The notes beneath the pieces are model-generated. The model was given only the letters and a program-made list of their open reading frames with translations, had not been told where the DNA came from and did not search any database. Positions 3,636 to 18,773 of a DNA stretch of 64,000 nucleotides are shown here, in pieces. The stretch is from Neobacillus sp. DY30 (GTDB lineage: Bacteria > Bacillota > Bacilli > Bacillales > Cytobacillaceae): positions 2,050,001-2,114,000 of the forward strand of contig NZ_CP126093.1 of NCBI RefSeq assembly GCF_030123065.1, written 5' to 3'. The position numbers and the translations under genes were made by a program. The first letter of the stretch is position 1. The number at the start of each line of letters is the position of its first letter.

Positions 3636-3640
3636 ATTTT

Positions 3641-3690
3641 TCTTGTTGGACTAACGGGTCAGTTTAGTTGAACAAGTAGATGTGATTTTA
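3641..3690. repeat. Dispersed repeat, site B (intact, best copy)
   Basis: CTAACGGGTCAG followed by TTTAGTTGAACAAGTAG (3651-3678). This is the cleanest intact version of the target in which both IS1111-type copies are inserted; the AG at 3661-3662 corresponds to the insertion core. Confidence 0.7.
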
Positions 3691-3727
3691 TGTTGTCTTT
3701 GAATCATGAAGTGCTTAACATTAAAAA

Positions 3728-3746
3728 GCTAGGAATCGTTCCTAGC
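3728..3746 (-). terminator. Terminator of the DUF3231 gene
   Basis: Stem GCTAGGAA / TTCCTAGC with a 3-nt loop. It is preceded on the plus strand by AAAAA, which gives a U-run on the minus-strand transcript. Confidence 0.7.
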
Positions 3747-3767
3747 GTCCAGTTTCTGAAATATTAT

Positions 3768-4784: not shown

Positions 4785-4896
4785 GATTTATCCTCCAATA
4801 AGCGAAATTCTAAAGTGTTTTTATTGTTCTCTCAGAGAATGAAAAATATGTTAAAAATCGGAAAACTTCAACCATCATATTTCTATTGTGAAAAAT

Positions 4897-4965
4897 TGTA
4901 CTTAAGCTAACGGGTGCAATAGTTAAAGATAATGATCGCTGCTGGGGCGGTCTTTTTTCTTATTG
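4897..4965. repeat. Dispersed repeat, site A (terminator half), left flank of the IS110 element
   Basis: GTACTTAAGCTAACGGGTGC, then a hairpin GATCGC-TGCTGG-GGCGGTC and TTTTTT. The matching site B half (GCTAACGGGACAG at 6564-6576) lies on the other side of the IS110 element, so the insertion split an A-B pair. Confidence 0.65.
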
Positions 4966-5090
4966 TACTACCATGAAAATTAACTTCTGTTAGAACCGAA
5001 AAATGGCAATACTTAAATAAACGCAGCTCATTCATCTTTTTAAAAGGGGAGAGCGTCTGATCTTTGGCGGTTATATACTTGTTTAATGGA

Positions 5091-6308
5091 TTAGGAAGCT
5101 TCTGTTATTGTAACCGAATAGCCTAAGTTTTCTAGCCTACGAACCGAATGGCGTACAATAGATACCTGTCTTTGTTTATCAAAGTAGTCTTCGCCTAAGT
5201 CTACATACATTTCTTTTCTAATTAACAGGTAATATGCAATCCGCAATATTGCATGTGCAACTACTATTGCTGCTCTTTTGTTTCCTTTTCGTCCTGCTGT
5301 TCGTCGATATAGTGCACCTAGATAGTTTTTAGAACCTCTCACTGATTGAGCTGCTTCAGTTAATGCTGATCTTAAATACTTATTTCCTTTTTTCGATCTA
5401 GTTGATTTTCTTTTTCCAGCACTTTCGTTATGTCCAGGTACGAGAGCTGCCCACGAACAAAGATGTGCCGCAGTTGGAAATTGTTTTTTAACATCAGTAC
5501 CGATTTCAGCTAGAATTTGTTCAGCCATTCTTCTGGCGATTCCAGGTATCGAATCTAGTCTTTCAATATCTTCTTCATAAGTGCTAACTCGTTCGGCTAT
5601 TTCTTGATCTAGCATTTCAATTTGCTCAGTTAGAAAATCAATGTGGGTTAAAATCGTCTTGAGCATTAAGCGTTGATGTGGGTTTACATAGCCCTGAAGT
5701 GCTAATTCAAGTTGTTCTTTTTTCTTTTTCATTGTACGACGAGCGAAGTTTGCTAGTTTCTCAGGATCATCTTCGCCATCAGCGATAGCTCGAAGCATAT
5801 CCTTTGAGGAAACCCCCATAATATCAGAAACGACAGAGCCTAGTTTGATGTTGGCTCCTTCTAAAACTTTTTGAATCCGATTATGTTGTCTTGCACGTTC
5901 TTCTATAATACTACGGCGATAACGAACAAGTTCTCGCAGCTCTCTTTGAGTTCGATTTGGAATGAAACTCGCTTTGAGTAGACCATGGCGAAGAAGTTGT
6001 GCAATCCATTCGGCATCTTTAACGTCGGTCTTACGACCTGGGAGTGCCTTCATGTGTTGGGCGTTTACAACTAGAAACTCAATCCCTTCAGATTCTAGTA
6101 AGTTGACTATAGGTTTCCAATAAACACTCGTGCTTTCCATTGCTACATGTGTACAACCATGTTCTTTAACCCAGTCGATTAACTTGAGTAGAAAAACTGT
6201 TTTAGTAGAAAACGTTTGAATCTCCTTTCCATCAGGTGTCATAATACACGCAGTGATATTATCTTTATGAACATCCATACCACATGCTCTTTCAATGATT
6301 ACATCCAT
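5091..6308 (-). CDS. IS110 family transposase
   Basis: A 405-residue transposase with the N-terminal RuvC-like DEDD domain (GMDVHKD near residue 10, [10 protein letters not shown] near 57, [19 protein letters not shown] near 91-110) and the C-terminal Tnp_20 domain ([36 protein letters not shown] with the candidate catalytic serine). IS110 enzymes recombine a circular element intermediate with a short target chosen by an element-encoded RNA. Full length with no frameshift, so probably active. ATG 6308 has AAAGGAAG about 9 nt upstream. Confidence 0.9.
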
Positions 6309-6319
6309 TGAAATTCTTC

Positions 6320-6540
6320 CTTTCTAGGCTTATAAATTGGAGGCTGGTGCAACAATCAGAATAAGGATTAATCTACCATGAGTGCTTCCCGTAAGGGAGC
6401 GACAGTTTGTGGTGCACCGTGGTCGTTGGAGTCAGACTAACGGATGGGCTCTATGGCACCATAGTACATCGACCTTCCTCTCCAGCCTTAGGACAAGTAT
6501 GGACGGATTCAATACATTTTCATTCTTTGTGATGAAGAGC
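6320..6540 (-). ncRNA. Candidate bridge RNA region of the IS110 element
   Basis: In IS110-group elements the guide RNA is encoded in the noncoding left end upstream of the transposase. Here that stretch has clear hairpins, for example GCTCCC / GGGAAGC around 6384-6400, and CTATGG / CCATAG around 6451-6463. On the RNA strand it contains CCGTTAG (about 6437-6443), which matches the site B sequence at the right junction. The RNA ends are not determined, and a seven-base match alone is weak. Confidence 0.45.
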
Positions 6541-6563
6541 TGTTTTTTAGTGATTCATGGATG

Positions 6564-7021
6564 GCTAACGGGACAGTTTAATAGAATAAAGAGTTTTACC
6601 ATAACTAGGTTAATAACATTAAGGATTATCATATGGGGAATATAAATTTGTTGGAGATAAGATTAAAAGTATTTCAGCTTTAGCTTGGAATCCTTTTTAA
6701 AGTATAATTTATTCGTTTATTGAAGTATTCGTAAAACCGCACTTATTTAATAATACAAATAAATTTAATATCAGTTTCATCTTATTCCCTTTAGTACTTA
6801 AGATACTTAAATATAAATATGATACAAGTGGTGTTCACCGATCTGGGAGAATGATTTTTGATAAAGCGGTTAATTTCCTTGTGATTAGAGTAGATTCTAC
6901 TAAATTATCCTTGTTAGAATCAAAAAGCTGTATCAAAAGAATTGACACACATAAATATGTAATATAACATATACCTATGATTACTATGCATAGAAATAGT
7001 ATGTATTGGAGGGAGACTGTT
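6564..7021. other. Site B repeat and gene-poor DNA
   Basis: An intact site B (GCTAACGGGACAGTTTAATA, 6564-6583) is followed by about 430 bp without a convincing gene. A frame near 6647-6699 (FVGDKIKSISALAWNPF and a stop) looks like the tail of a lost gene. The PadR promoter must lie before 7008 but no clear -35/-10 pair stands out. Confidence 0.45.
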
Positions 7022-7366
7022 ATGAAGATTAGTAAAGAGTTGCTAAAAGGTAGTACCACTACTCTTATTTTAAGCCTACTTAATTCAAAACCAATGTATG
7101 GCTATGAAATTATTAAAGAGTTGGAAATGAAGTCTGAGGGAATTTTTAGTTTTAAAGAAGGAACGATTTATCCCATCCTGCACACCCTTGAAGATAAAGG
7201 ACTGATTATTTCTTATTGGGAAGAAGGCCACGGGAAGAGAAAGAGAAAATATTATAATATCAATGGAAAAGGTAAGGAATTTATAAAGGAAAAAAAAGAA
7301 GAATGGTCAATCTTTAAGACTGCAGTGGACGAAGTGTTGAAAGGAGAGAAAATCGTATGGGATTAG
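7022..7366 (+). CDS. PadR family transcriptional regulator
   Basis: A 114-residue PadR winged helix: LLKGSTTTLILSLLNSKPMY, GYEIIKELEMKSEGIFSFKE, then GTIYPILHTLEDKGLI and the basic wing EGHGKRKRKYYNI. ATG 7022 has GGAGGGAG about 7 nt upstream and is preferred over an upstream ATG at 6977. Its last 10 bases overlap the next gene, so the two are translationally coupled. In Firmicutes, PadR genes are commonly paired with membrane proteins bearing an N-terminal HAAS/permease-prefix domain, and control that operon. The same arrangement is seen here. Confidence 0.9.
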   Translation: MKISKELLKGSTTTLILSLLNSKPMYGYEIIKELEMKSEGIFSFKEGTIYPILHTLEDKGLIISYWEEGHGKRKRKYYNINGKGKEFIKEKKEEWSIFKTAVDEVLKGEKIVWD

Positions 7367-8625
7367 AAAACGATTTTGAAGTATATATTAAAGAATTGTG
7401 TAAACAAATAAGAAATAAAGATGTACACTCTAGTATAAAACTTGAAATAAGTGATCATCTTCAGACACTTAAAGAGGAAGCCTTGCTTGCTGGACTCTCA
7501 GAAGAAGAGGCAATCGATCAAGCATTGGCTCGTATGGGAGATGTAAAGTTGCTTGGAAAGCAGCTTAACGAGACCCATAAAGCCCCAATGGATATCAAAA
7601 CCATACTTCCAGTAATGACAGCTTCACTGTTTGGATTACTAGTAATGTATTATTTACAATTTCATTCTACTTTTACAGAGATTCAGGATATGAAAGTATT
7701 TAATAAAAGTCTTATCTTTTACTTGTTAGGAATTCTGCTGATGCTAAGCTTGTCTACGTTTGATTATAGAAAGTTATTAAAGTTCTCCAAACACCTATAT
7801 GCGGGAACGGTCCTAATTCTATTAATAACTGTTCTTTTTGGTGTTAGAGTCGATGGTGTTCCTTTTTTAATCTTAGGTTTTGCCAATATTAATTTTACCG
7901 AGATTACTCCTTTTCTCCTTGTTATGTCCTTTGCTGGAATCTTTCATTCTTGGAATTGGAATGATTCTCGAAAATCTTGGCTTGGAGTAGGTATTCTGGC
8001 ATTACCTATCTTATTGTTATTAACAACAAGTGCCATAGCAACTTCTATCATTTGTATTATTGGCTGCACAGCCATTATGTTTGGATCTAGAGCCAGTCTT
8101 AAACAAGCAATAACATTCGCAGCAGCTGCCTCTATATGGCCAATCTTCAACCTGTTGGTTCTATCTCAAAATTATACATCGATCGATACCAAGGATATTA
8201 AAAAATTAGGCGCATCTGATTTTATTGGAAATAGTCTTAATCTAACCCCAAATTTAATTTCTGAAGTACATACAGATTTTATATTCACGTACATCATCTA
8301 TTCATTTGGCTGGTTAGCCGCGATTATTGCTTTCGTATTGGTTGTGTTTTTTATTTGGAGAATATTGAGTGCTGCGAAAAGCGTTAATTTCATTTATGGT
8401 AAAATGCTGGCTATAGGGTTGGCAGTAACCTTTGCTAGCCAATTTATACTAAGCATCCTGACAAACCTGGGCTTATCACCTTTACCTGGTGTAGCCATGC
8501 CATTCATGAGCTTTGGAGGCTCACATATATTGTTGGAGATGATTGCAGTAGGTCTGATTTTAAGCATATTCAGAAGACTAAAAGCAGCTGATATACTCTG
8601 GTTGGACGTAAAAAATAATACCTAA
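7357..8625 (+). CDS. FtsW/RodA/SpoVE-like membrane protein with N-terminal HAAS-type prefix
   Basis: A 422-residue protein. Residues 1-75 are a soluble HAAS/permease-prefix helix bundle (FEVYIKELCKQI; LSEEEAIDQALARMGDVKLL). About 9-10 membrane segments then follow in SEDS order. SEDS hallmarks remain: SEVHTDFIFTYI near residue 305 and LPGVAMPFMSFGGSHILLEM near residue 380. SEDS proteins polymerise peptidoglycan glycan strands with a partner class B PBP. This one is more divergent than FtsW or RodA, so activity is inferred. It is co-transcribed with the overlapping padR gene, a pairing that suggests conditional wall synthesis. Confidence 0.8.
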   Translation: MGLENDFEVYIKELCKQIRNKDVHSSIKLEISDHLQTLKEEALLAGLSEEEAIDQALARMGDVKLLGKQLNETHKAPMDIKTILPVMTASLFGLLVMYYLQFHSTFTEIQDMKVFNKSLIFYLLGILLMLSLSTFDYRKLLKFSKHLYAGTVLILLITVLFGVRVDGVPFLILGFANINFTEITPFLLVMSFAGIFHSWNWNDSRKSWLGVGILALPILLLLTTSAIATSIICIIGCTAIMFGSRASLKQAITFAAAASIWPIFNLLVLSQNYTSIDTKDIKKLGASDFIGNSLNLTPNLISEVHTDFIFTYIIYSFGWLAAIIAFVLVVFFIWRILSAAKSVNFIYGKMLAIGLAVTFASQFILSILTNLGLSPLPGVAMPFMSFGGSHILLEMIAVGLILSIFRRLKAADILWLDVKNNT

Positions 8626-8647
8626 ACTATTATAGTGATATTCCCTT

Positions 8648-8690
8648 AATTCCCCTCTTCGTAATATAAAAAAGGGGAATTATTTTTTTT
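8648..8690 (+). terminator. Rho-independent terminator of the padR/ftsW-like operon
   Basis: Stem AATTCCCCT / AGGGGAATT followed by A and eight T. Confidence 0.9.
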
Positions 8691-8896
8691 CATTTTAGGA
8701 TGCGTAAATTAGTTTAAGTGTAATAACTTCAAAATATCAAAAAATAACAGATGACTATGCCAATCATTTTTGACCCAGTATAAGTCTACTATGCATTAAA
8801 GAATGACTACTTTCTTATTACACATTCCTGCACCTTTACTTCCATAACCGCAGCAATCTATTTATGTATAAAAATTAGTTCTTATACATATTTTTC

Positions 8897-9196
8897 ATGC
8901 AATATGTTTCATTCAGTTTAATAAACATACTGCCAAAACATACATTCATTAAATGCCAACAACATAATGGAATTATTCTTATCGTGATTGGTATCATCTT
9001 TTTTCTCATTTCAAAGTGGTTATGGAAAAAGGGAGACCCCAAAGAGACCTTTATGGAAGCAATAGGAGATTTAATATCAGATTTAATAGGCTGGCAGTTA
9101 CCTGTTGTCTTTTCTGGAATAAAAGCGTGGTCATTATTTATATGGTTTATTGGGTTAGTATCAGTATTATTTGGAGTGGTATTGATTATATTCTAA
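8897..9196 (+). CDS. Small membrane protein, hypothetical
   Basis: A 99-codon frame with two strong membrane segments (IILIVIGIIFFLISKWLW and LFIWFIGLVSVLFGVVLIIF) separated by a short soluble part. I do not recognise the family. The start is uncertain: ATG 8897 has no good ribosome site, and the first 24 residues look less natural than the rest. The true start may be internal, or the gene may be 5'-truncated. A site-A-like sequence (AACGGGTGC) follows the stop by 6 bp. Confidence 0.5.
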   Translation: MQYVSFSLINILPKHTFIKCQQHNGIILIVIGIIFFLISKWLWKKGDPKETFMEAIGDLISDLIGWQLPVVFSGIKAWSLFIWFIGLVSVLFGVVLIIF

Positions 9197-9221
9197 TGCA
9201 ATAACGGGTGCAATAATTTAG
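9195..9221. repeat. Dispersed repeat, short site A core
   Basis: ATAACGGGTGCAATAATTTA directly after the stop of the preceding small gene. It has the core of site A, but no terminator hairpin follows. The next gene starts 14 bp later. Confidence 0.5.
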
Positions 9222-9234
9222 GAGAGAATTTCAA

Positions 9235-9444
9235 GTGAATGACAAAATTATGGAAACATCTATTGCAGAACTATACTCAAGACTTGCGGTAGCCCCTTTA
9301 TATATTATCCAACTGATATTTTGTATAGGCTACTTAATTTTCACACGAAAAGACAAAGGGATTTTTGTGTTTATATTTAAAATTTATTCCATTTTTATAA
9401 TTGTTAATTATCTTGTTGCACTTTATTATCGTTTCTTTCACTAA
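9235..9444 (+). CDS. Small membrane protein, hypothetical
   Basis: 69 residues with two predicted membrane helices (APLYIIQLIFCIGYLIF and IFKIYSIFIIVNYLVALYY) joined by a short charged loop (TRKDKG). The start is GTG 9235 with TAGGAGAG about 8 nt upstream. There is no recognisable family. It is bounded on both sides by AACGGGT repeat cores and fits the single-gene cassette pattern of this region. Confidence 0.6.
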   Translation: MNDKIMETSIAELYSRLAVAPLYIIQLIFCIGYLIFTRKDKGIFVFIFKIYSIFIIVNYLVALYYRFFH

Positions 9445-9510
9445 CGGGTAGCAAGAGTTAAGGATGGGATCGCTGCGGCGATCTTTTTTCTTGTTGAGCT
9501 AACGGGGCAG
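9440..9510. repeat. Dispersed repeat: complete site A plus left half of site B
   Basis: Site A: CTAACGGGTAGCAAGAG, then a perfect terminator GATCGC-TGCG-GCGATC with TTTTTT. It is followed at once by TTGTTGAGCTAACGGGGCAG, the left half of site B. The IS1111-type copy begins after the AG at 9509-9510, and the right half of site B (GTTAGTTGAATAAG) is at 11345 onward. Confidence 0.75.
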
Positions 9511-9627
9511 CATTCCTGTAATGAATGAAAATGAGATTTGAACAAAAAAATAACCTCTTGGTAGAATGAGAGAGTCCTAAGCCGGCAAGCAAAAAGGATA
9601 AACTCAATAAAACCAGGAGGATATGAA

Positions 9628-10923
9628 ATGAATTATAACCAAAATGAAAAGATTGCTCAAATTACTTCTCAAACTCTAATTATAGGCGTTGATATCGCGA
9701 AATTCAAACATGTGGCACGGGCACAGGACTACAGAGGAATAGAATTCGGATCACCTTGTTATTTTGAGAATACTAAGCAAGGATTTGAAGTGTTTCTCGA
9801 GTGGATCTTTCATTTAAAGGAAGATCAGGCCATGGAAAAAGTGATAGTAGGTATGGAACCTACTGGCCACTATTGGCTAAATCTAGCTCATATACTAAAA
9901 GAAAATAATATAAAGTTTGTCGCAGTGAACCCGTTACATGTAAAGAAAAGTAAGGAACTTGATGACAACTCACCGACTAAGAACGATGTGAAAGATGCTA
10001 AAGTCATCGCACAGCTGGTCAAGGATGGGAGATACGCTGAACCAACGATTCCACAAGGTGTTTATGCAGAACTCCGCGTGGCGAAAAAAATGCGTGATCT
10101 CTTAACTGACGACCTTCAAACGGTACAAGGTCAGATTCACAACTGGCTAGATCGCTATTTTCCTGAGTTTTTAACAGTCTTTAAGAGTTGGGAAGGGAAA
10201 GCAGCCTTGCAATTTTTAAGGCTAGGAGCCCTACCGTATGAACTAATTCATTTCACGGATCAGTACTTATTGGATCATTTACGAAAAGCAGTTAGTCGGA
10301 GTGTAGGACTAAACAAAATACTAGAGTTAAAACAAGCAGCTAGAGAGTCCATCGGACTATGCCAAGGTTCTAATATGGCCAAATTAGAACTAGCGACTCT
10401 GCTTGATAAATATGACTTGATACAAGAGAAGTTCGTAGAACTTGATAATAAGATTGATAACCTAATTGAACATATCCCTGGCGTTCAACAAATGTTAGCT
10501 ATTAAGGGAGTAGGGAGAGATACGGTTGCCGGCTTCTTTGCGGAAGTTGGAAATCTTCAAGACTATAATCACCCTAGACAAATCATAAAGCTAGCTGGAT
10601 TGAGCTTGAAGGAGAACACCTCTGGCAAGCATAAAGGACAAACAAAAATCACAAAACGAGGTAGGAAGAAGCTGAGGGCTCTCCTCTTCAGGGTTTGTAT
10701 GATCATGGTCGCGAAGAATTCGGCCTTTAATGCATTGCATACCTATTATACTCAACGCCCGGATAATCCACTCAAGAAAATGCAGTCTCTGATTGCCTTA
10801 TGCAATAAGTTAATACGTTTATTCTTTGCCATTGGTAAGAAACAATTTGAGTTTAGTGAAGAGCGAATGTTAAAGGATATTCCTCATATGAGAGCAAACA
10901 TAGAAGTTGAAAAAGCAGCTTAA
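9628..10923 (+). CDS. IS1111-type IS110 family transposase, copy 1
   Basis: 431 residues. DEDD domain: IIGVDIAKFKHVARA near residue 18, VGMEPTGHYWLNLAH near 73, and SPTKNDVKDAKVIAQLVKDG near 110. Tnp_20 domain: HIPGVQQMLAIKGVGRDTVA near residue 277, and LAGLSLKENTSGKHKGQTKI with the candidate catalytic serine. By eye it is over 90 percent identical to copy 2 (15493-16788). It is intact, with GGAGG 8 nt before ATG 9628. It cuts and joins DNA as a circular intermediate at sites specified by the element's own RNA. Confidence 0.92.
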   Translation: MNYNQNEKIAQITSQTLIIGVDIAKFKHVARAQDYRGIEFGSPCYFENTKQGFEVFLEWIFHLKEDQAMEKVIVGMEPTGHYWLNLAHILKENNIKFVAVNPLHVKKSKELDDNSPTKNDVKDAKVIAQLVKDGRYAEPTIPQGVYAELRVAKKMRDLLTDDLQTVQGQIHNWLDRYFPEFLTVFKSWEGKAALQFLRLGALPYELIHFTDQYLLDHLRKAVSRSVGLNKILELKQAARESIGLCQGSNMAKLELATLLDKYDLIQEKFVELDNKIDNLIEHIPGVQQMLAIKGVGRDTVAGFFAEVGNLQDYNHPRQIIKLAGLSLKENTSGKHKGQTKITKRGRKKLRALLFRVCMIMVAKNSAFNALHTYYTQRPDNPLKKMQSLIALCNKLIRLFFAIGKKQFEFSEERMLKDIPHMRANIEVEKAA

Positions 10924-10964
10924 TTCAGTTGAAACAGTAAAGTAGAAAAGAGTTTTAGTTTTAA

Positions 10965-11164
10965 AAGTCTCGTACATTTGAAGCACGGATTAGTCAGCAA
11001 AGCAACTAAACATCGGGCAATGACCCTGTGGGGCAGCATGACTGACATCCACCTCATGGAAAGGTTGGACGAAGGAATTTGAGAGCGAAGACTCTGTGAG
11101 ACATGGGAGGGTTGACCTCCATGAGATATGTGGACATCCACCAGTGCGATCATATTTTTACTCA
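10965..11164 (+). ncRNA. Candidate bridge/seek RNA of IS1111-type copy 1
   Basis: The 3' noncoding region keeps about 200 bp almost unchanged between the two IS copies, although the bases around it have drifted. It has clear hairpins: CATGGGAGG / CCTCCATG at 11102-11123 and GTGG-ACAT-CCAC at 11130-11141. A loop at 11003-11036 holds CAACTAAAC, the reverse complement of the site B right half, and GGGGCAG, identical to the site B left half at 9504-9510. The two segments are separated by a small GGG/CCC hairpin. This is the layout expected of a target-binding loop. The RNA ends are unknown. Confidence 0.7.
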
Positions 11165-11344
11165 TTTACCATTTTTTGCAAATGCGTGGCTAAAGAGCAA
11201 CAGTCTTTTTTTCTTCGAAAGCCCAAATTTATCCTTACGAGATAAATCCAACCATAGTAGCGAGCATTTACTCAAAAATAACATTCTATAAAATACTGAG
11301 AAAGCTGGAGAAAACGTGAGTTTTCACTTTGTTTATTGAGGGAG

Positions 11345-11608
11345 GTTAGTTGAATAAGATGATAGATGTAATCCTTTGGGATTAAATGTTTTGCTTTGTT
11401 AGAACGATAAATTAATTGGTATCTATAATGACTAGTTACAAGGAAGTCAATTTTAAGCTTTACTTAATACAAAATGAAGTTTTCTGGAATGATTATTTGC
11501 GTTGAGCAATCATAAGAATTAGTTGAGTCTCTACCTTGCTCAAATTTATGAAGAATATCTACTTATTGAGTTAAACGGGAACGTAGAAAAAAGGGATGTG
11601 AAATAGAA
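11345..11608. other. Right half of site B and gene-poor DNA
   Basis: GTTAGTTGAATAAG (11345-11358) completes the target interrupted by IS copy 1. The remaining DNA has no convincing gene. A degenerate site A/B core (AGTTAAACGGGAACG) is at 11570-11584. Confidence 0.5.
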
Positions 11609-11686
11609 ATGGAGAAAAAATTATTATCTATTGGATTACAAATTTTAGTTTTATATTCGTTTGTATTAATTTGTTTATTTAAATAA
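11609..11686 (+). CDS. Putative 25-residue hydrophobic peptide
   Basis: ATG 11609 to TAA 11686. It encodes MEKKLLSIGLQ followed by a hydrophobic stretch ending LICLFK, one predicted membrane helix. AAGGGATGTG lies about 9 nt upstream, which favours translation. No family is recognised. It may be a small membrane peptide or a decayed gene; the next frame, also broken, starts 4 bp after it. Confidence 0.35.
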   Translation: MEKKLLSIGLQILVLYSFVLICLFK

Positions 11687-11690
11687 AGGT

Positions 11691-11839
11691 ATGGACTTAA
11701 TTGAAAAAGAATTTGGGAAAAGGGCAATCATTCGTGGGGGGGGATTTATCTTTTTCAACCATCAGATGCCATCAAGGTCATACACAAATGCAAAGAACTT
11801 GGACTGAACATACTTGGCTCAATTTATCAGAATATTTAA
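11691..11839 (+). pseudogene. Frameshifted fragment of a small hypothetical protein
   Basis: Frame 1 from ATG 11691 reads MDLIEKEFGKRAIIRGG and then runs into a tract of eight G. In another frame the continuation reads IYLFQPSDAIKVIHKCKELG and ends at TAA 11839. Joining the two halves gives a sensible globular protein start, so a frameshift in the poly-G tract is likely. The fragment is also short, suggesting a 3' truncation. Sequencing error or slippage at the tract are alternatives. Confidence 0.5.
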
Positions 11840-11862
11840 AATATTCAAAGGGGGAATGATTT

Positions 11863-12393
11863 TTGAAAAAGAATATTTTTAGTTTTATACTTGTTATTAT
11901 TTCAATTTTTCTGTTAAGTATTGGGATTTATCAAGGAATTAAAATTCACAAATTAGGAATTAAAAATCACAAATTAGCTTCAAGCTTAGAAGAAAAAGCA
12001 ATAAAAGAAGTAAAAGCAAAAGCAGAAATAAAAGCACAAAAAAAAGAAATAGCAGAAATTAAACAAAAAGTAGAAGATATGGAATTTGGAGATAAACTTT
12101 GGGATATGATTTATAATGCAAAAATTGATGTAATAAAAAATGAAACAACCTTCATAAAAAGTTATACAATGATAAATACCAGTGGTAAAGCATTAAAGGA
12201 TGTATTTATTGATTATTTTATTTATGATAAAAATGGAGTTAAAATTGCTAAATCAACTATGGTTTATACTGAACATATTGGAATTGGTCAAAAGTTTACA
12301 ATGACAGCAGATGTAAGTGCAATTCAAGGTAGAGATATTGAATTAAATTATGTAACTTGGGATTATGCCGAAGGAACAGATATTACGAATTAA
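11863..12393 (+). CDS. Membrane-anchored coiled-coil protein, hypothetical
   Basis: 176 residues. The order is an N-terminal membrane helix (IFSFILVIISIFLLSIGIYQ), a Lys/Glu/Ala-rich coiled coil at about residues 35-80, and a C-terminal beta domain with FIKSYTMINTSGKALKDVFI and KSTMVYTEHIGIGQKFTMTA. The latter resembles FxLYD-like extracellular beta-sandwich domains. The start is TTG 11863 with AAAGGGGGAATG about 7 nt upstream. The protein is expected to be anchored in the membrane with the beta domain outside. The function is unknown. A site A repeat with a terminator follows. Confidence 0.6.
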   Translation: MKKNIFSFILVIISIFLLSIGIYQGIKIHKLGIKNHKLASSLEEKAIKEVKAKAEIKAQKKEIAEIKQKVEDMEFGDKLWDMIYNAKIDVIKNETTFIKSYTMINTSGKALKDVFIDYFIYDKNGVKIAKSTMVYTEHIGIGQKFTMTADVSAIQGRDIELNYVTWDYAEGTDITN

Positions 12394-12404
12394 AATATTG
12401 TGAA

Positions 12405-12500
12405 GTTTTGTACTTAAACTATAGGGTGCGATTGTTCAATAAGAACAGTCGCTTTTCTTGTTCCGCTAACGAGGCAGGTTAGTTGAAGTAGAATTATGGG
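12405..12500. repeat. Dispersed repeat: complete A-B pair, uninterrupted
   Basis: Site A: TACTTAAACTATAGGGTGCG, with terminator hairpin GCGATTGTTC / GAACAGTCGC and TTTTCTTG. Site B follows directly: GCTAACGAGGCAGGTTAGTT (12465-12484). This shows the undisturbed A-B order between two accessory genes. Confidence 0.7.
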
Positions 12501-12538
12501 TAATTGTAGTAAAATGTTTTTATTAGGGGGAATGTGTT

Positions 12539-13102
12539 GTGAAACATAGAAAAGAAAAAGACCTAGTGACTAATGAAATGACTGAGGATGATATCTGGAA
12601 CTTTCTTATGAAACATTTAGATGAATATAAATCCCCAACAGAAAACAAAAGAAAAGACCAAATGACTAAGGACGATATCTGGAACGCAGTTATTAAAATG
12701 ATGGGCAAATATGACTTCCCAACAGAAAACCAAATTGCTAATGAAGTATTTATTGTTTTTAATTACTATTCAGAAATGGAAAGTGGAGGTCACGAAAGTT
12801 TGTTCACTTGGTTCTCATGGCATATTGAGAAAGTAGGAATAACCAATTACTTGAAGGAACTTACAGGTATTCTTGAAAAAATTGGTGCTTATGATTATTC
12901 AAAAATTGAAAAAGAATATGGTGAAGAATTATGGAAACTATTCAAAGCATTGGAAAATAATGATAATGAAGAAGAGGATTTTTCTAGTATTCTCAGGAAA
13001 GCGAATAATGAATATAAAAAACTCGATGGGAAATTGGGTGATTTATTAGAAACTTATTTTGTTAGTATTTATACTGAATTGATTGAAGTAGTTGAAGATT
13101 AA
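12539..13102 (+). CDS. DMP19/DUF4375-family protein with N-terminal internal duplication
   Basis: 187 residues. Residues 65-187 match the DUF4375 (DMP19-like) pattern: VFIVFNYYSEMESGGHESLF, YLKELTGILEKIGAYDY, LLETYFVSIYTELIEVVED. DMP19 of Neisseria is a DNA-mimic protein that antagonises a DNA-binding regulator; the Bacillus homologues are uncharacterised. Residues 14-39 and 42-67 are a tandem duplication around TEDDIWN / TKDDIWN and SPTEN / FPTEN. The start is GTG 12539 with TAGGGGGAAT about 7 nt upstream. It is strongly acidic. It sits between site B (12465) and site A (13111). Confidence 0.7.
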   Translation: MKHRKEKDLVTNEMTEDDIWNFLMKHLDEYKSPTENKRKDQMTKDDIWNAVIKMMGKYDFPTENQIANEVFIVFNYYSEMESGGHESLFTWFSWHIEKVGITNYLKELTGILEKIGAYDYSKIEKEYGEELWKLFKALENNDNEEEDFSSILRKANNEYKKLDGKLGDLLETYFVSIYTELIEVVED

Positions 13103-13104
13103 GT

Positions 13105-13165
13105 CGTTCTTCAACAAACGGGTAGCAAGAGTGAAATAAAGCAACGCATTCAAGATGCGCTGCTT
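13105..13165. repeat. Dispersed repeat, site A with terminator
   Basis: CAACAAACGGGTAGCAAGAG, then hairpin GCAACGCAT / ATGCGCTGC with a T-rich tail. It ends the DMP19-type gene, and may also serve the convergent recombinase gene. Confidence 0.65.
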
Positions 13166-13174
13166 TATTCATTT

Positions 13175-14020
13175 TTAAAAATACTTCATATATAATTGCT
13201 GCCTGATGCTTCCGCTTAACTGGGCATATATCCGGGTGGTTTCACTTTTTTCATGACCTAATAGGCTTTGAATAACATCTAGAGGTGCTCCATTATTCAA
13301 TAAATGGGTTGCATAGCTGTGCCTTAGTTGGTGCGGATGAATTTCTTTGTTAATGCTGGCGCGGTTTGAAATCCGCTTAATAATGTATCGCATCTGGGCA
13401 ATGCTCATTCGATGAGGATCCCGTTCCGTGACAAAAATAGCAGTGTCCCTGTCTTCGCGATTATCTAGGTATCGTTTTAACCAAATTTCGCTGCGGATAT
13501 TGAAATAGACCTCCCGTTCCTTATCGCCTTTACCTCTGATAATGGCGGATCGGTTCGACCAATTAATTCTGCCTCTATCTAAGGAAACAATTTCTCCTAT
13601 TCGGCATCCAGTGGAGAACATGAATTCAAACAGAGCCTTTTCCATTGGGGTGCAGCAGGCTTCCCGTAAATGCTCAATTTCCATTTCGGTCAGAAATTTA
13701 GGTATTCTTTTCCCGGTTTTAGGTTCTTTAATTTTAGCTGCTGGGTTTTTGGGGATATGCCCTTCTTCATGAGACCATCGAAATAATGATTTCATAAAAC
13801 GAATTCGATGAGCCAAACTTGCAGGCTTAAGGCTTTCACTTGATTTTGCTAAATAAGCTTTTAATTGAACCGTAGTGATCGTATCAAGTTGAACATCATT
13901 AATAAAGCGTATAAGTAAGCCGGACTGTAGTTTATATGCTTTTAATGTTTGCGGCGAAAATCCTTCAATACGTTTATCAGATTCATACGTTTCCCAAGCT
14001 TGTGACAATAACAAGTTCAT
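13175..14020 (-). CDS. Tyrosine recombinase / integrase, XerC/XerD-like
   Basis: 281 residues. The N-terminal SAM-like core-binding domain (RIEGFSPQTLKAYKLQSGLL) is about residues 5-90. In the catalytic domain, TGCRIGEIVSLD holds the first Arg, KGDKER the Lys, HPHQLRHSYATHLL the His-x-x-Arg, LLGHEKSETT the second His, and TRIYAQL the Tyr nucleophile. All catalytic residues are present, so it is probably active. Its role is unknown: it lies in the middle of the tRNA-Arg island, not next to either att repeat. It could therefore be a resident Xer-like enzyme of a nested element. Confidence 0.88.
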   Translation of the reverse strand: MNLLLSQAWETYESDKRIEGFSPQTLKAYKLQSGLLIRFINDVQLDTITTVQLKAYLAKSSESLKPASLAHRIRFMKSLFRWSHEEGHIPKNPAAKIKEPKTGKRIPKFLTEMEIEHLREACCTPMEKALFEFMFSTGCRIGEIVSLDRGRINWSNRSAIIRGKGDKEREVYFNIRSEIWLKRYLDNREDRDTAIFVTERDPHRMSIAQMRYIIKRISNRASINKEIHPHQLRHSYATHLLNNGAPLDVIQSLLGHEKSETTRIYAQLSGSIRQQLYMKYF

Positions 14021-14090
14021 CTCTCCCTAAAAATTCTATTTTTCAGGAATTATTGACCTGATTCACGAAATTGAAACGGAGGTTCTTATT

Positions 14091-14130
14091 AAGCTAAAGG
14101 TGCAGTTTAGTGGAAGAAGGGATTATAGTA
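14091..14130. repeat. Dispersed repeat, site B (intact)
   Basis: AAGCTAAAGGTGCAG followed by TTTAGTGGAAGAAGG, then TATAGTAAAAT as a possible -10. It precedes a gene remnant at 14208-14405. Confidence 0.6.
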
Positions 14131-14207
14131 AAATAAGGCTGGTTATTGATAAAAATCTAAGTTATATGACTTATTAGCAACCAGTCGTGATAATATTGGT
14201 TATTTAA

Positions 14208-14405
14208 ATCGAAGGTTATTTACATCAAGTTCTACTTACTGGTAAAAAGTGTCCCAAACAACAGTTAGAGCAAAAATATCTGCAAGCAAAAGAGTTAACC
14301 TATGAGATAAAAGACCTTCCTAATGTGTTTTGTAGGTTTCACAATTTTGAGCCAATTCCTTATGACTGCGATATAAAAGTCGAGTTTGTTATTGATACCA
14401 TATAG
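14208..14405 (+). pseudogene. Remnant of a hypothetical gene
   Basis: An open stretch of 65 codons without a start codon. It contains GYLHQVLLTGKKCPKQQLEQ and, near the end, FCRFHNFEPIPYDCDIKVEF before TAG. Composition is protein-like, but in-frame stops cut it off upstream. A site B lies before it and a degenerate site A after it (AAGCTAACGAAACCGTATAG at 14430-14449, then terminator ACACCT / AGGTGT with TTTTTT). It looks like a decayed cassette gene of unknown function. Confidence 0.4.
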
Positions 14406-14429
14406 ATAGAGTTTATTCACCTTCTTATT

Positions 14430-14484
14430 AAGCTAACGAAACCGTATAGCAAGACAACAGACACCTAAAATAGGTGTATTTTTT
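14430..14484. repeat. Dispersed repeat, degenerate site A with terminator
   Basis: AAGCTAACGAAACCGTATAG, then hairpin ACACCT-AAAAT-AGGTGT and ATTTTTT. It has the same core-plus-terminator layout as the other site A copies. Confidence 0.55.
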
Positions 14485-14557
14485 ATGGAAGTATATTCAA
14501 TTCATAAAGTGTCGAAAATATTTAATATGTCTAAGGTCCGTTGGAGTGGATTTATAA

Positions 14558-15124
14558 ATGGAATATAAAGAAAATGTAAAAAAGATGATTGACGATAATA
14601 CCAATCAGGCCCAAGAAATAATACAACAAAAAATTGAGATTTGGTCCAATCATGTAGTCTTCTCAGGTTTATGGTGGTTTGGGGTAGTACTATCCATTAT
14701 ACCTTGGCTTATTTGGATAAAATACAGAAAAAAGGATAGTACCGACCGTATTTTATATGCTGGTTTTTACGTAATCATTGTATCACTTTGTTTGGATGTG
14801 GTAGGAGATCAATTTGGTTTTTGGCATTATAGATTTAATGTAATGCCTGTACTTCCAACTTATTTTCCTTGGGATATTACATTAATGCCAATATCCGTCA
14901 TGTTTATTCTGCAAATTAAACCTGCTTTTAATCCAGTTATAAAAGCAATATTGTTTGCACTTTTTTCTGCGTATATAGCCGAACCATTCTTTCATTGGAT
15001 GGGCGTTTATGTTCTAACTGGATGGAAATATTCCTATTCCTTCCCTATACAGATCATAATATATTTAATTGCACATTACCTTAGTAGAAGAGAAAGATTT
15101 TCCCCGTTTTATATCAAGAAGTAA
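14558..15124 (+). CDS. CBO0543-family integral membrane protein
   Basis: 188 residues. A soluble N-terminal part of about 30 residues is followed by five or six membrane segments, with the characteristic DQFGFWHYRFNVMPVLPTYF and LPISVMFIL-like region and the ending WKYSYSFPIQIIIYLIAHYL. This matches the CBO0543 family, common in Bacillaceae and clostridia and of unknown function. ATG 14558 has TTGGAGTGG about 9 nt upstream. A second member lies at 62317-62754. It is isolated between repeat copies. Confidence 0.75.
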   Translation: MEYKENVKKMIDDNTNQAQEIIQQKIEIWSNHVVFSGLWWFGVVLSIIPWLIWIKYRKKDSTDRILYAGFYVIIVSLCLDVVGDQFGFWHYRFNVMPVLPTYFPWDITLMPISVMFILQIKPAFNPVIKAILFALFSAYIAEPFFHWMGVYVLTGWKYSYSFPIQIIIYLIAHYLSRRERFSPFYIKK

Positions 15125-15141
15125 CTAAAGATATTATTAAT

Positions 15142-15165
15142 AGTCCTTCAAGGGCTCTTTTTGTT
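15142..15165 (+). terminator. Terminator after the CBO0543-family gene
   Basis: Short stem AGTCC / GGGCT with TTCAA loop, followed by CTTTTTG. Confidence 0.6.
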
Positions 15166-15207
15166 TGCTTTTTAATGAAAGTGACAAGCAACTAACGAAT
15201 ATCTCTA

Positions 15208-15275
15208 GTGATAAAACAGAGCTGTCATAAAAGGCAGTCTTTTTTATTGAGCTAACGGGCAGCATTCCTGTAATA
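15208..15275. repeat. Dispersed repeat with solo IS1111 left end
   Basis: A terminator-like segment (CTGTC / GGCAG, then TTTTTTA) is followed by TTGAGCTAACGGGCAG, the left half of site B. Then comes CATTCCTGTAATAAAAC instead of the normal TTTAGTTG. The first 12 bases after the AG equal the left end of the IS1111-type copies, so this looks like the scar of a deleted copy. Confidence 0.5.
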
Positions 15276-15296
15276 AAACAAAGTTTGTGAAAAAAT

Positions 15297-15374
15297 GTAC
15301 TTAAACAAACGGGTGCAATAGTTAAAGATGAGATCGCTGCGGCGGTCTTTTTGCTTGTTCAGCTAACGAAGCAG
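15297..15374. repeat. Dispersed repeat: complete site A plus left half of site B
   Basis: TTAAACAAACGGGTGCAATA, a terminator GATCGC-TGC-GGCGGTC with TTTTTG, then CAGCTAACGAAGCAG. IS copy 2 begins after the AG at 15373-15374. The right half of site B (TTTAGTTCAACAAG) resumes at 17211. Confidence 0.75.
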
Positions 15375-15492
15375 CATTCCTGTAATGAATGAAAATGGGG
15401 TTTGAACAAAAAAAGAACCTCTTGGTAGAATGAGAGAGTCCTAGAGCTGGCCAGCAAAAAAGGACAATCCCCAAATACCAGGAGGTCTTAAC

Positions 15493-16788
15493 ATGAATTA
15501 TAACCAAAATGAAAAGATTGCTCAAATTACTTCTAGGACATTAATTATAGGTGTTGATATTGCGAAATTCAAGCATGTCGCACGTGCACAGGACTACAGA
15601 GGAATGGAGTTTGGTTCCCCTTGTTATTTTGATAATACCAAGGAAGGATTTCAACTGTTTCTTAATTGGATCAATCAATTAAAACTGGAACAACACATGG
15701 AAAAAGCGATCGTAGGGATGGAACCTACTGGCCACTATTGGCTAAACCTAGCTCATATTCTAAAAGAAAATCAAATAAAGTTTGTCGCTGTGAACCCATT
15801 ACATGTAAAGAAGAGTAAGGAACTTGACGATAATTCACCGACTAAAAACGATGTGAAAGACGCTAGAGTCATCGCTCAGTTGGTCAAGGACGGGAGATAT
15901 GCTGAACCGACGATACCACAAGGTGTTTATGCAGAACTTCGTGTGGCGAAAAAAATACGTGATCTCCTAACTGATGACCTTCAAACGGTACAAGGCCAGA
16001 TTCACAACTGGCTAGATCGCTATTTTCCTGAGTTTCTAACCGTCTTTAAGAGTTGGGAAGGAAAAGCAGCGTTGCAATTTTTAAGGTTAGGAGCATTACC
16101 AAATGAACTGATCAATTTCTCTGATCAGTACTTATTAGACCATCTACGGAAAGCAGTTAGCCGTAGTGTAGGAATAAACAAAATACAAGAGTTAAAAAAA
16201 GCAGCTAAAGAGTCCATCGGACTTTGCCAAGGTTCAACTATGGCCAAATTAGAACTGGCCACTCTGCTTGATAAATATGACTTGATACAAGAGAAGTTCG
16301 AAGAACTAGATCAGAAGATAGATAACTTGATTGAACATATACCTGGTGTCCAGCAAATGTTAGCCATCAAGGGCGTGGGGAGAGATACGGTTGCCGGCTT
16401 CTTTGCAGAAGTGGGAGATCTACAAGAGTATTCGCACCCGAGACAAATCATAAAGTTAGCTGGATTAAGCTTGAAAGAGAATACTTCTGGCAAGCATAAA
16501 GGGCAAACAAGGATCACTAAAAGGGGGAGGAAGAAGTTAAGGGCTCTCCTCTTCAGAGTGAGTATGATTATGGTCGCGAAGAACTCGGCCTTTAAAGCGC
16601 TGCATGTCTATTACACGCAGCGTCCGGACAATCCTCTAAAGAAAATGCAGTCTCTGATTGCATTGTGTAATAAGCTAATACGTATATTTTTTGCCATTGG
16701 AAAGAAACAATTTGAGTTTAGTGAAGAGAGAATGTTACAGGATATCCCTCATATGAGAGCAAACATAGAAGTTGAAAAAGCAGCGTAA
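15493..16788 (+). CDS. IS1111-type IS110 family transposase, copy 2
   Basis: 431 residues, the same length and motifs as copy 1: GVDIAKFKHVARA, GMEPTGHYWLNLAH, KNDVKDARVIAQLVKDG, and ENTSGKHKGQTRITKRGRKK. Differences are spread through the protein, with many synonymous changes in the DNA, so both copies appear to have been under selection. GGAGG lies 7-8 nt before ATG 15493. It is expected to act with the RNA encoded at 16830-17030. Confidence 0.92.
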   Translation: MNYNQNEKIAQITSRTLIIGVDIAKFKHVARAQDYRGMEFGSPCYFDNTKEGFQLFLNWINQLKLEQHMEKAIVGMEPTGHYWLNLAHILKENQIKFVAVNPLHVKKSKELDDNSPTKNDVKDARVIAQLVKDGRYAEPTIPQGVYAELRVAKKIRDLLTDDLQTVQGQIHNWLDRYFPEFLTVFKSWEGKAALQFLRLGALPNELINFSDQYLLDHLRKAVSRSVGINKIQELKKAAKESIGLCQGSTMAKLELATLLDKYDLIQEKFEELDQKIDNLIEHIPGVQQMLAIKGVGRDTVAGFFAEVGDLQEYSHPRQIIKLAGLSLKENTSGKHKGQTRITKRGRKKLRALLFRVSMIMVAKNSAFKALHVYYTQRPDNPLKKMQSLIALCNKLIRIFFAIGKKQFEFSEERMLQDIPHMRANIEVEKAA

Positions 16789-16829
16789 TTCAGTAAGAGC
16801 AGTAGGTAGAAAAGGATTTTAGATGTTAT

Positions 16830-17030
16830 AAGTCTCGGACATTTGAAGCACGGATTAGTCAGCAAAGCAACTAAACTTCGGGCAAGGATCCTGTGGAGCA
16901 GCATGACTGACATCCACCTCATGGAAAGGTTGGACGAAGGAATTTGAGAGCGAAGACTCTGTGAGGCATGGGAGGGTTGACCTCCATGAGAAATGTGGAC
17001 ATCCACCAGTGCGATCATATTTTTACTCAT
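16830..17030 (+). ncRNA. Candidate bridge/seek RNA of IS1111-type copy 2
   Basis: Counterpart of the copy 1 RNA, with the same hairpins. The presumed target loop again has CAACTAAAC (16868-16876), but the second guide is GGAGCAG (16895-16901) instead of GGGGCAG. The left flank of this insertion is GAAGCAG instead of GGGGCAG. The G-to-A change in the guide follows the target, and the one remaining difference would be a G-U wobble. The DNA between the guides (CGGGCAAGGATCC) differs from copy 1 but can still pair. Confidence 0.7.
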
Positions 17031-17293
17031 CCACCATTTTTTGTAAGTGTGTGGCTAATGTGATATCAGTCTTTTTGCTTCAAAGACCCAAATTTATCCT
17101 GACGAGATAAATCCAACCAAAGTAGCGAGCTGTAAACTCTAAAATAACAATCTATAAAATACTGAGAATACTGGAGAAAACGTGAGTTTTCACTTTGTTT
17201 ATTGAGGGAGTTTAGTTCAACAAGTTGGATCAAATGCCATTTCTTTTTATGTTTCTTTTGAAACCCTTTCAGATATTTCAAAATAAATCCTCG

Positions 17294-17318
17294 GAGGTGC
17301 ACTGGCACCTCTTTTTTT
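17294..17318 (+). terminator. Strong terminator upstream of bioY
   Basis: Stem GAGGTGC-ACTG-GCACCTC followed by seven T. No gene of its own is recognisable upstream, so it may be what is left of a lost gene. Confidence 0.85.
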
Positions 17319-17321
17319 GGG

Positions 17322-17386
17322 TTGACAAATTTTTTAAATATAAATATAGTTTAATTGTTAACTAAATATAAAAATTAGTTTACATT
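17322..17386 (+). promoter_or_regulatory. bioY promoter with BirA (biotin repressor) operator
   Basis: TTGACA (17322-17327), 17 nt, then TATAGT (17345-17350), a near-consensus SigA promoter. At 17355-17386 lies TTGTTAACTAA, then 9-10 nt, then TTAGTTTACA, an imperfect inverted repeat of the BirA operator type seen before bio genes in Firmicutes. Biotin-loaded BirA would repress bioY. Confidence 0.8.
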
Positions 17387-17402
17387 CGAAAGGGAGAAAC
17401 AG

Positions 17403-17981
17403 ATGACAAATCCACAATTGAAATTAAGAATGATGATTGTGACAGCACTTTTTGCTGCAATCATTGGCGTAATGGCTCAAATTACAATTCCACTTCCGCT
17501 CGTTCCAATTACAGGACAAACCCTTGCCATTGGCTTAGCAGCAACAATCCTAGGTTCTCGTTATGGAACCTTATCGGTCATTTTATATTTAATTATTGGT
17601 TCTGCAGGAGTACCTGTATTCGCTGAATTTTCAGGTGGAATTTCAAAGCTTATCGGACCCACTGGAGGTTATTTAGTTGGCTTCCTTCCAGCTACCTTCC
17701 TAATCGGATGGTTTATGGAAAAAACAGCCTTCAACTTCAAGAATGCTGTGATTGCTAATAGTATTGGAATGCTCGTTACTTTGGCATTCGGCACTGCTTG
17801 GCTAAAGATTGCTGCCGAGCTTTCTTGGACAGCTGCTTTTGCAGGAGGATTTACTCCGTTTATCATTGTTGGATTAATCAAGGCTGCCCTTGCTTCGTGG
17901 ATTGGTGTCTTAATTCGAAACCGATTAACTTCTGCTAGGCTATTGTTTTCAGAAAAAAAAGACCAAACAAAATCAGCCTAA
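17403..17981 (+). CDS. bioY: Biotin transporter BioY (ECF S component)
   Basis: 192 residues with six predicted membrane helices. BioY signatures are QITIPLPLVPITGQTLAIG, GSRYGTLSVILYLIIGSAGV, and GPTGGYLVGFLPATFLIGW. BioY binds biotin with high affinity and works with the ECF energising module (EcfA1, EcfA2, EcfT), encoded elsewhere. ATG 17403 has AAAGGGAG about 7 nt upstream. A BirA operator overlaps the transcription start region, so uptake is induced on biotin limitation. It is monocistronic. Confidence 0.93.
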   Translation: MTNPQLKLRMMIVTALFAAIIGVMAQITIPLPLVPITGQTLAIGLAATILGSRYGTLSVILYLIIGSAGVPVFAEFSGGISKLIGPTGGYLVGFLPATFLIGWFMEKTAFNFKNAVIANSIGMLVTLAFGTAWLKIAAELSWTAAFAGGFTPFIIVGLIKAALASWIGVLIRNRLTSARLLFSEKKDQTKSA

Positions 17982-18094
17982 AAAATTTTAATGTTTGTAA
18001 TTTATGCTTCAGATCCATCGCAGGGAAAGGCTAATAAACTCTTAATTCTGCCGTAAATGTGTTCCAATCCGTGCAAATAAAGCTTTATTATTTA

Positions 18095-18180
18095 TGCAAC
18101 TAACTGGTGCGATTCTTCAATAACGAGGGGTCGCTTTTTTTATTGAAGTAACGACGCAGGATAGCTTAATAAGAGATGTT
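18095..18180. repeat. Dispersed repeat: A-B pair
   Basis: CAACTAACTGGTGCGATTCT with a hairpin ending GGGTCGCTTTTTTT, then TTGAAGTAACGACGCAGGAT (site B, divergent), then TTATAATGTTAAAAT as a possible -10 before the gene at 18225. Confidence 0.6.
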
Positions 18181-18224
18181 AAGATTATAATGTTAAAATT
18201 GAAATCAATAAGTGAGGAGAAATA

Positions 18225-18312
18225 ATGAAATTTTATATTGCATCAAGCTTTAAAAATATAGATAGGGTTAGGTATGTTAGTGAAAAATTAAAAGAAAAAG
18301 GGTATAACATAT
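18225..18312 (+). pseudogene. N-terminal fragment of a nucleoside 2-deoxyribosyltransferase-like gene
   Basis: ATG 18225 with AGTGAGGAG upstream begins MKFYIASSFKNIDRVRYVSE and KLKEKGYN, the conserved first strand and helix of the deoxyribosyltransferase-like family. After about 28 codons the similarity stops, and the sequence runs into unrelated DNA and then a piece of pobA. The family identification rests on a short stretch. Confidence 0.5.
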
Positions 18313-18375
18313 TGAAGGAAATTTATCTTGTTTTCATTTTACCTAGAAAAGCCCTATTTAAAGCGCTTTTTCTAG

Positions 18376-18773
<398 letters not shown>

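Follow-up and report, generated by a model that had tools for sequence, protein, structure and literature searches.

The closest described systems are the RNA-guided elements of the IS110 superfamily. As set out in the excerpts of Siddiquee 2024 (PMC11187229) drawn on here, IS1111 elements carry a downstream seekRNA in which the match to the top strand lies 5′ of the match to the bottom strand, some IS110-type members have a downstream region, and one natural redirection is recorded in an IS110 relative. The portions of Durrant 2024 (PMC11208160) used here report guide/target covariation on 5,511 pairs, bridge RNAs predicted for 93.0% of IS1111 elements, and a tolerated rG:dT pair for IS621. 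Here, we describe two copies of an insertion sequence (IS) in a 64,000-nucleotide stretch of the Neobacillus sp. DY30 genome (contig NZ_CP126093.1, positions 2,050,001 to 2,114,000; hereafter, the window). Each copy is very probably (roughly 93%, judging from sequence comparison) an RNA-guided IS110-superfamily element with its own recombinase gene. The mechanism and the guide order are already published (Siddiquee 2024; Durrant 2024) and the window elements are a further case, which extends the known bridge/seek RNA elements by a well-sampled branch from Gram-positive bacteria. Element ends were placed where similarity among relatives stops, which gave the following features.

9511 to 11344, plus strand: IS copy 1, 1834 bp, with left end (LE) CATTCCTGTAATG and right end (RE) TTTATTGAGGGAG, without target duplication; ends taken from relatives with unrelated outer DNA.
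9628 to 10923, plus strand: DEDD transposase/recombinase of copy 1, 431 amino acids (PF01548 and PF02371; NF033542 at 213 bits, cut-off 140).
15375 to 17210, plus strand: IS copy 2, 1836 bp; ends taken from relatives, as for copy 1.
15493 to 16788, plus strand: transposase of copy 2, 431 amino acids, 92% identical to that of copy 1 (PF01548 and PF02371).

In the domain test for the IS110 superfamily, both copies showed the N-terminal DEDD domain PF01548 together with the C-terminal PF02371, and NF033542 scored above its cut-off. The transposase is similar in sequence to the IS621 and ISCro4 proteins of solved structure, and shares 24% identity over 147 amino acids with that of IS4321, the sole ISfinder member compared. 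Relatives have conserved ends, beginning with CATTCCTGTAAT and finishing with TTTATTGAGGGAG or TATAGAGGGAG, while the DNA outside is unrelated. In copy 1, non-coding DNA amounts to 117 bp upstream of the transposase gene and 421 bp downstream of it. Four full copies occur in the 6.14-Mb one-contig genome, with identities of 100, 99, 95 and 92% when compared with copy 1; several broken ones lie near 3121645–3122932, 3178319–3179610 and 3185175. A solo left-end-like remnant, GAGCTAACGGGCAG followed by CATTCCTGTAATAAAAC, was also seen at window positions 15249–15280, 112 bp upstream of the copy 2 junction, and consists of a target half and an IS end with the remainder gone.

The long downstream region carries the predicted guide RNA, whose parts on the donor side are listed here for copy 1.

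10983 to 11147, plus strand: bridge/seek-type RNA of copy 1, ends predicted from an outer stem of GCAC (10983–10986) with GTGC (11144–11147); 28-pair consensus.
16848 to 17012, plus strand: bridge/seek-type RNA of copy 2, predicted from sequence and the consensus fold.
11071 to 11080, plus strand: predicted donor-binding segment GAAGGAATTT, its AGGAAT complementary to ATTCCT of the LE; loop conserved.
11103 to 11111, plus strand: predicted donor-binding segment ATGGGAGGG, with GGGAG in common with the RE GAGGGAG.

In the part of the alignment examined, conservation from ~60 to 225 bases past the stop codon was far above that of the preceding bases, and the variable patches inside this conserved region included the two guide segments. 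RNAalifold applied to 20 divergent sequences gave 28 pairs, 14 of which had changed on both sides (6.9 in column shuffles). Under this consensus fold 96.2% of cells were paired, compared with 88.1% in the shuffles, and 50 cells showed two-sided change, compared with 13.8 (0 of 500 shuffles); the fold outperformed the shuffles on four of five measures, and outperformed every slid version of itself. The outer stem swaps sides among relatives, from GCAC with GTGC in the window copies to GTGC with GCAC in L165, L167, L198 and other members of the Shine-Dalgarno branch described below, and reads GTAC with GTAC in L193 and GCTA with TAGC in L110. Inside it, a first loop closed by a stem (GTCAG with CTGAC in copy 1) contains guide 1, a small hairpin of GGG with CCC, and guide 2, while a second loop contains GAAGGAAT and ATGGGAGGG, both matching the element's own ends. 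As predicted, this two-loop arrangement is the layout of a bridge RNA. The donor-side ends and loop are nearly invariant among relatives: the RE GAGGGAG accompanies RNA [AG]TGGGAGG in 148 of 151 tabulated rows, and where the RE is GAAGGAG, in L236 and L174, the RNA reads ATAGGAGG, such that end and RNA have changed together. The existence of the putative RNA is supported by covariation of its structure. A search of window positions 9000–18500 against Rfam, with E values up to 1, returned no match, and therefore no curated Rfam family fits this RNA.

On the target side, the segments that had been assigned as guides, and the flanks they would read, are as follows.

11003 to 11011, plus strand: guide 1 of copy 1, CAACTAAAC, top-strand match; CAACTAAA reads the right half as TTTAGTTG, and the next bases face the AG core.
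11030 to 11036, plus strand: guide 2 of copy 1, GGGGCAG, bottom-strand match, identical to the left target half.
9504 to 9510, plus strand: left target half of copy 1, GGGGCAG.
11345 to 11352, plus strand: right target half of copy 1, GTTAGTTG.
16868 to 16876, plus strand: guide 1 of copy 2, CAACTAAAC.
16895 to 16901, plus strand: guide 2 of copy 2, GGAGCAG, from the sequence and guide/flank comparison.
15368 to 15374, plus strand: left target half of copy 2, GAAGCAG.
17211 to 17218, plus strand: right target half of copy 2, TTTAGTTC.

The initial annotation of this DNA had placed these segments and proposed their order, with the right half as complement, then a hairpin, then the left half as identity. 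Every segment was found at its given place in both copies, and guide 1 (at 11003) indeed precedes guide 2 (at 11030). Its match between guide 1 and the right flank also held, at 7 of 8 bases in each copy, since guide 1 predicts TTTAGTTG and is mismatched at R1 in copy 1 and at R8 in copy 2; the right-flank string it had given, GTTTAGTTG, exceeds the flank by one base. A further claim was that guide and target had changed together from G to A between the two copies. From these copies alone this would be weak evidence, because A occupies position L5 in 21 of the 41 free target sites of this genome (see below); across relatives, the flank has A at L5 in 4/4 contexts with a GGAGCAG guide versus 8/59 with a GGGGCAG guide (Fisher p = 0.0008), which bears the claim out. 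The G-U pair proposed for the other difference (guide G, flank A, at L6) belongs to the commonest mismatch type, with guide-G/flank-A accounting for 29 of 69 mismatches at L3–L7, and this excess is compatible with tolerated rG:dT pairing, although A is frequent in free sites in any case (21/41 at L6, as at L5).

To extend the comparison, relatives were gathered by searching at the level of genus (61 genomes), family (193) and order (397), along with the best 80 of 580 named loci. Genome searches used E cut-offs of 1e-100 and 1e-140; in many genomes part of the candidates was scored, and most of the listed places were fetched. The sample so obtained has 234 loci with a transposase match, which reduce to 197 distinct contexts. 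Automatic extraction left 24 of these incomplete, and nine guide-2 strings, seven guide-1 strings and two left flanks were read by hand. The test of guide 2 covered 179 contexts and 30 guide types (the 18 without a usable left flank or guide were excluded; the flank was shortened by a contig end in 7 of the 179), and that of guide 1 covered 168 (excluding six with a tandem neighbour and 23 incomplete), with its register free by one base in real and permuted data alike.

Guides and flanks covaried, guide 2 base by base and guide 1 more loosely, as the annotation had inferred when it set out this check in advance. At the level of guide types, guide 2 matched its own left flank at a mean of 4.59 of 6 positions, compared with 2.37 (standard deviation 0.20) after permutation (0/5000 permutations reaching it), and the same was seen among elements of at least 60% identity (14 types; 4.50 versus 3.27; 0/5000). 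All five positions from L3 to L7 were matched in 123 of 179 contexts, with concordances of 0.94, 0.96, 0.93, 0.89 and 0.77, respectively; the guide is claimed for these positions only, because L8 gave no value of its own (one type lacks a base there). Individual guides illustrate this agreement: GGCCAG lies beside GGCCAG in 2/2 contexts (L046 and L125), GGGGAG beside GGGGAG in 3/3, GGGAAG beside GGGAAG in 2/3 (the third flank being AGGAAG), GTGGCAG beside GTGGCAG in L157 and L133, ATCGTAG beside ATCGTAG in L236, and AAGAAAG beside AAGAAAG in 9/9 contexts from two genomes, six of them contig-broken and perhaps representing as few as three insertions. For guide 1, the match to the right flank was 5.14 of 8, compared with 3.69 when permuted (0/3000), and within the target class of the window copies it was 4.84 of 7 versus 4.33. 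These data provide natural, base-level evidence on which guide positions count, strong for L3–L7 and weaker for the right side. Unrelated flanks beside retained segments, which the annotation had named as the contrary case, were not general in the 179 contexts, the exceptions being L237 and L101; in L101, the place of the left flank is occupied by the right end of another copy. The remaining misses mostly involve one or two bases.

Two observations concern the surroundings of these insertions. Tandem or nested insertions occur in L120, L130, L162 and L221, all with CATTCCTG on the right, and in L101, whose left flank ends in TTGAGGGAG; in each, one IS end adjoins the opposite end of another copy. 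In draft genomes, the contigs of L105, L106, L108 and L110–L115 break off shortly past the IS, with 7 or 13 bases remaining at the guided half of the target, and therefore these insertions are marked by assembly breaks.

Copies of one element are bordered by nearly the same few bases, as would be expected if the flank were really part of the element, its ends had been misassigned, and guide and flank were alike through moving together. Copies of the same element within one genome nevertheless differ in flank (for example, TTGAAGAG, TTGAGGAG, ATGAGGAG and ATAAGGAG among L167–L173), the two target halves are joined in free sites, and the loci orthologous to L172 that lack the insertion in two related genomes (L243 and L244) are continuous over the junction, though their letters there are not identical. 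We therefore regard misassigned ends as very improbable. Since each separate locus supplies its own flanks, which do not descend with the element, the match to the guide is also no by-product of relatedness, save for shared insertions.

By analogy with IS621 and ISEc11, an RNA-guided element of this kind would have its downstream region transcribed and the resulting RNA bound by the recombinase. The first loop would pair with both target strands flanking the AG core (CT on the other strand) and the second with the ends of the donor, joined in a circle, with strand exchange then taking place at the core, without target duplication.

Several observations weigh against this account. The single-sequence fold is barely better than shuffles (z = -1.28); as the stability of the single RNA was unconvincing, alignment covariation was used instead. 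On the fifth measure of the consensus fold, the number of further pair types, the value was 26 versus 24.4, and 127 of 500 shuffles reached it. On the donor side, the RNA ATGGGAGG is unchanged in L023 (RE GAGGCAG) and L145 (RE AAGGGAG) despite the altered ends. Guide 1 is a weak predictor, with 3/5000 permutations reaching its within-class match and a register freed by one base; its good matches in the Shine-Dalgarno class are confined to R1 (24/29). The left flank of L237 is unrelated to its own guide, and the pairs L110/L115, L112/L114 and L120/L162 each have both 20-nucleotide flanks in common, such that each pair is perhaps one insertion.

With respect to the known groups, the annotation had called the elements IS1111-type. 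The position of the RNA downstream of the transposase gene and the 5′ location of the top-strand match agree with this, as in the IS1111-group seekRNA elements ISEc11, ISKpn4, ISPst6 and ISPa11 (PMC11187229, excerpts). The protein and the ends do not: the window transposase has 431 amino acids, compared with 330–350 for IS1111 transposases in the same excerpts, and, whereas sub-terminal inverted repeats of 7–17 bp are described there for IS1111, a comparison of the first with the last 60 bp in each copy gave no ungapped inverted repeat of 7–12 bp above chance (93 to 192 of 200 shuffles reached the best matches). The elements also resemble IS621 as described in the portions of PMC11208160 used here, in having a DEDD recombinase with C-terminal PF02371, a target loop and a predicted donor loop, a CT core (AG on this strand), guides that covary with targets, and guide-G/flank-A mismatches that fit the rG:dT tolerance of IS621. 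They differ from the IS110 group, where the RNA is mostly located upstream of the gene, in the left end, and from the IS110-type ISEc21, in which the two matches come in reverse order (PMC11187229, excerpts). This clade may belong among the IS110-type members with a downstream region that Siddiquee noted.

The window copies target an imperfect palindrome, with a consensus near GAACTAACGGGGCAG/GTTAGTTGAATAAG (here and below, a slash in a target marks the junction), that is repeated in co-oriented arrays in this genome. Two uninterrupted examples lie in the array that contains the copies.

12466 to 12487, plus strand: uninterrupted target site CTAACGAGGCAGGTTAGTTGAA, from the genome and window site searches.
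14094 to 14115, plus strand: uninterrupted target-like site with 2 mismatches, from the window site search.

Across the genome, 41 free sites were found at up to 2 mismatches, 36 of them on one strand, versus 0 for the reversed control pattern, and 32 of the 41 fall in four clusters (~761–774, 2053–2064, 2884–2888 and 3117–3229 kb). At up to 3 mismatches, co-oriented sites in the window lie at 3179, 3651, 6565, 12466, 14094 and 18148, with the interrupted ones at 9499 and 15363. Among relatives that use this target, 47 of 129 loci are accompanied by one or more additional sites in the vicinity, giving 80 sites, all in the orientation of the element (matches at the element's own junction excluded), whereas none was found near the 55 loci of other classes or with the reversed pattern. 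From window position 3179 to 18170, and in the genome clusters, the co-oriented sites lie between small genes in a cassette-array-like manner, some with a second palindrome, AACGGGTGC; a terminator-like hairpin, GATCGCTGCGGC followed by T, precedes both interrupted window sites.

A recombinase gene in the array (window 13175–14020) scored 207 bits with recomb_XerA_Arch (cut-off 220) and 91 bits with TIGR02249 (cut-off 265), and a 95% identical XerA-like recombinase is located at 3120665, with the sites 3119655 and 3124869 on either side of it. The array sites appear unlike the attC core, no formal attC search having been made. Homing of an IS to a repeated gene-array site recalls the IS1111-attC elements (Tetu and Holmes 2008; Post and Hall 2009; both as cited in the PMC11187229 excerpts), and attC is also dealt with in the part of PMC11616780 used here. 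Unlike those elements, the window arrays are in Bacillaceae, and the nearby recombinase scores as XerA/XerC/XerD-like and falls well short of the cut-off for integron integrases. In lifestyle, the elements clearly parallel the IS1111-attC elements in integrons, a parallel that we do not extend to integron membership. The IS also marks the sites of a co-oriented, cassette-like Bacillaceae gene array that is worth its own study.

Relatives use at least four target classes, to which they were assigned by guide 2 and across which the ends and the RNA scaffold are the same. Class i, the palindrome near AACGGGGCAG/GTTAGTTGAA, comprises 129 contexts and includes the window copies. Class ii (12 contexts) uses GATAAGAAAG/TATAAAA, or AGGAAAG followed by TATAAAAT, TATGTAAT or TATATAAA, and its TATAAAA type lies directly behind T runs in all six contexts with enough left flank. 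Class iii (6 contexts) uses ACGAGGAG/GCTYG or GCTCA within repeats. In class iv (35 contexts), the left flanks are AAGGAG (17), GAGGAG (8), TAGGAG (5), AGGGAG (3), GAAGAG and AAAGAG, and the right side begins with G in 24/29. L236 and L237 are single cases outside these four. Within class ii, L193, L215, L216, L110, L113 and L115 share a fixed AAGATAAGAAAG/TATAAAA site just past T runs, and in the first three the right-side DNA is itself similar between copies.

These classes bear on whether the transposase recognises a folded palindrome, the hairpin itself, with the RNA segments being a by-product or regulatory. The imperfect palindrome in the window would suit such recognition, as would the use of other foldable sites, attC and REP, by IS1111 relatives (PMC11187229, excerpts), a likeness in target habit that the window copies share with some members of that group. 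Relatives that share these ends and this RNA scaffold, however, use targets without that palindrome (AAGATAAGAAAG/TATAAAA and AAGGAG/G), and the guide changes base by base with these non-palindromic targets, which leaves recognition of the hairpin alone with a very small probability. Choice of the target by the RNA is the reading that we retain.

In a tree of 102 transposases, made by a quick method and with some long branches, the five class labels need five changes (the minimum possible being four); class i forms one side of a branch (SH-aLRT 98), and class iv does not. With scaffold and ends nearly fixed, the Gram-positive branch as a whole offers ready-made data on natural reprogramming. 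For the target classes, and the Shine-Dalgarno one above all, no paper appeared among those listed in a search of the journal literature, preprints being outside its scope.

Ribosome-binding sequences are complementary to the end of the 16S rRNA. The class iv guide spells NAGGAG or AAGGGAG, with GTGAAA on the right side as well in L218. Among class iv contexts with sufficient sequence, 21/29 have a start codon, opening a frame of at least 40 codons, 3–15 nucleotides past the right junction, versus 8/115 of class i (Fisher p = 1e-12), with 3/9 in class ii and 1/6 in class iii. In the two genomes with uninterrupted loci orthologous to L172 (L243 and L244), the same gene has its ATG just past the empty site (ATAAAGGGGGAAC and ATAAGGGGGAAG). 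After insertion, the RE GAGGGAG together with the G of the flank reconstitutes a Shine-Dalgarno-like sequence, and this rebuilt GAGGGAG-G would keep the downstream gene translated.

For this branch, selection against insertions inside genes could also produce a position before genes, without any targeting of ribosome-binding sites. Start codons at this distance are frequent anyway in the flanking DNA, following 480/3680 random positions, 204/738 AGGAG and 53/96 RAGGAGG sequences, and the observed 21/29 is only marginally over the RAGGAGG figure (one-sided p = 0.045). It is, however, above the AGGAG background (binomial p = 7e-7), the guide itself spells the ribosome-binding motif, and the empty sites adjoin a start codon; we consider selection on position alone unlikely, though it keeps more weight than the two alternatives discussed above. 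The class iv position is what a RAGGAGG guide alone would yield, and an extra preference is not clearly shown.

Taking classes and positions jointly, we lean, by a modest margin of belief, towards a Bacillales clade of RNA-guided ISs that has repeatedly rewritten its guide in nature, to array-site palindromes, a TATAAAA site by terminators, a GAGGAG/GCTCG repeat and Shine-Dalgarno sequences. In the last branch the guide would copy the ribosome-binding sequence, and the RE GAGGGAG would rebuild a Shine-Dalgarno sequence before the gene, making the insertion tolerable and placing the gene under read-through from the element. Because the sequence copied is conserved, genes with a strong version of it would be potential landing sites. 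If this is true, a mobile element solves the choice of target with a copy of a signal that is among the most widespread ahead of genes in the cell.

A second, distant IS110-family transposase (~26% identity) is encoded on the minus strand at window positions 5091–6308. The element that carries it is present again, nearly identical (99.9% over 1610 bp), at 5741010, and a hairpin and T run resembling those of the array sites precede one border.

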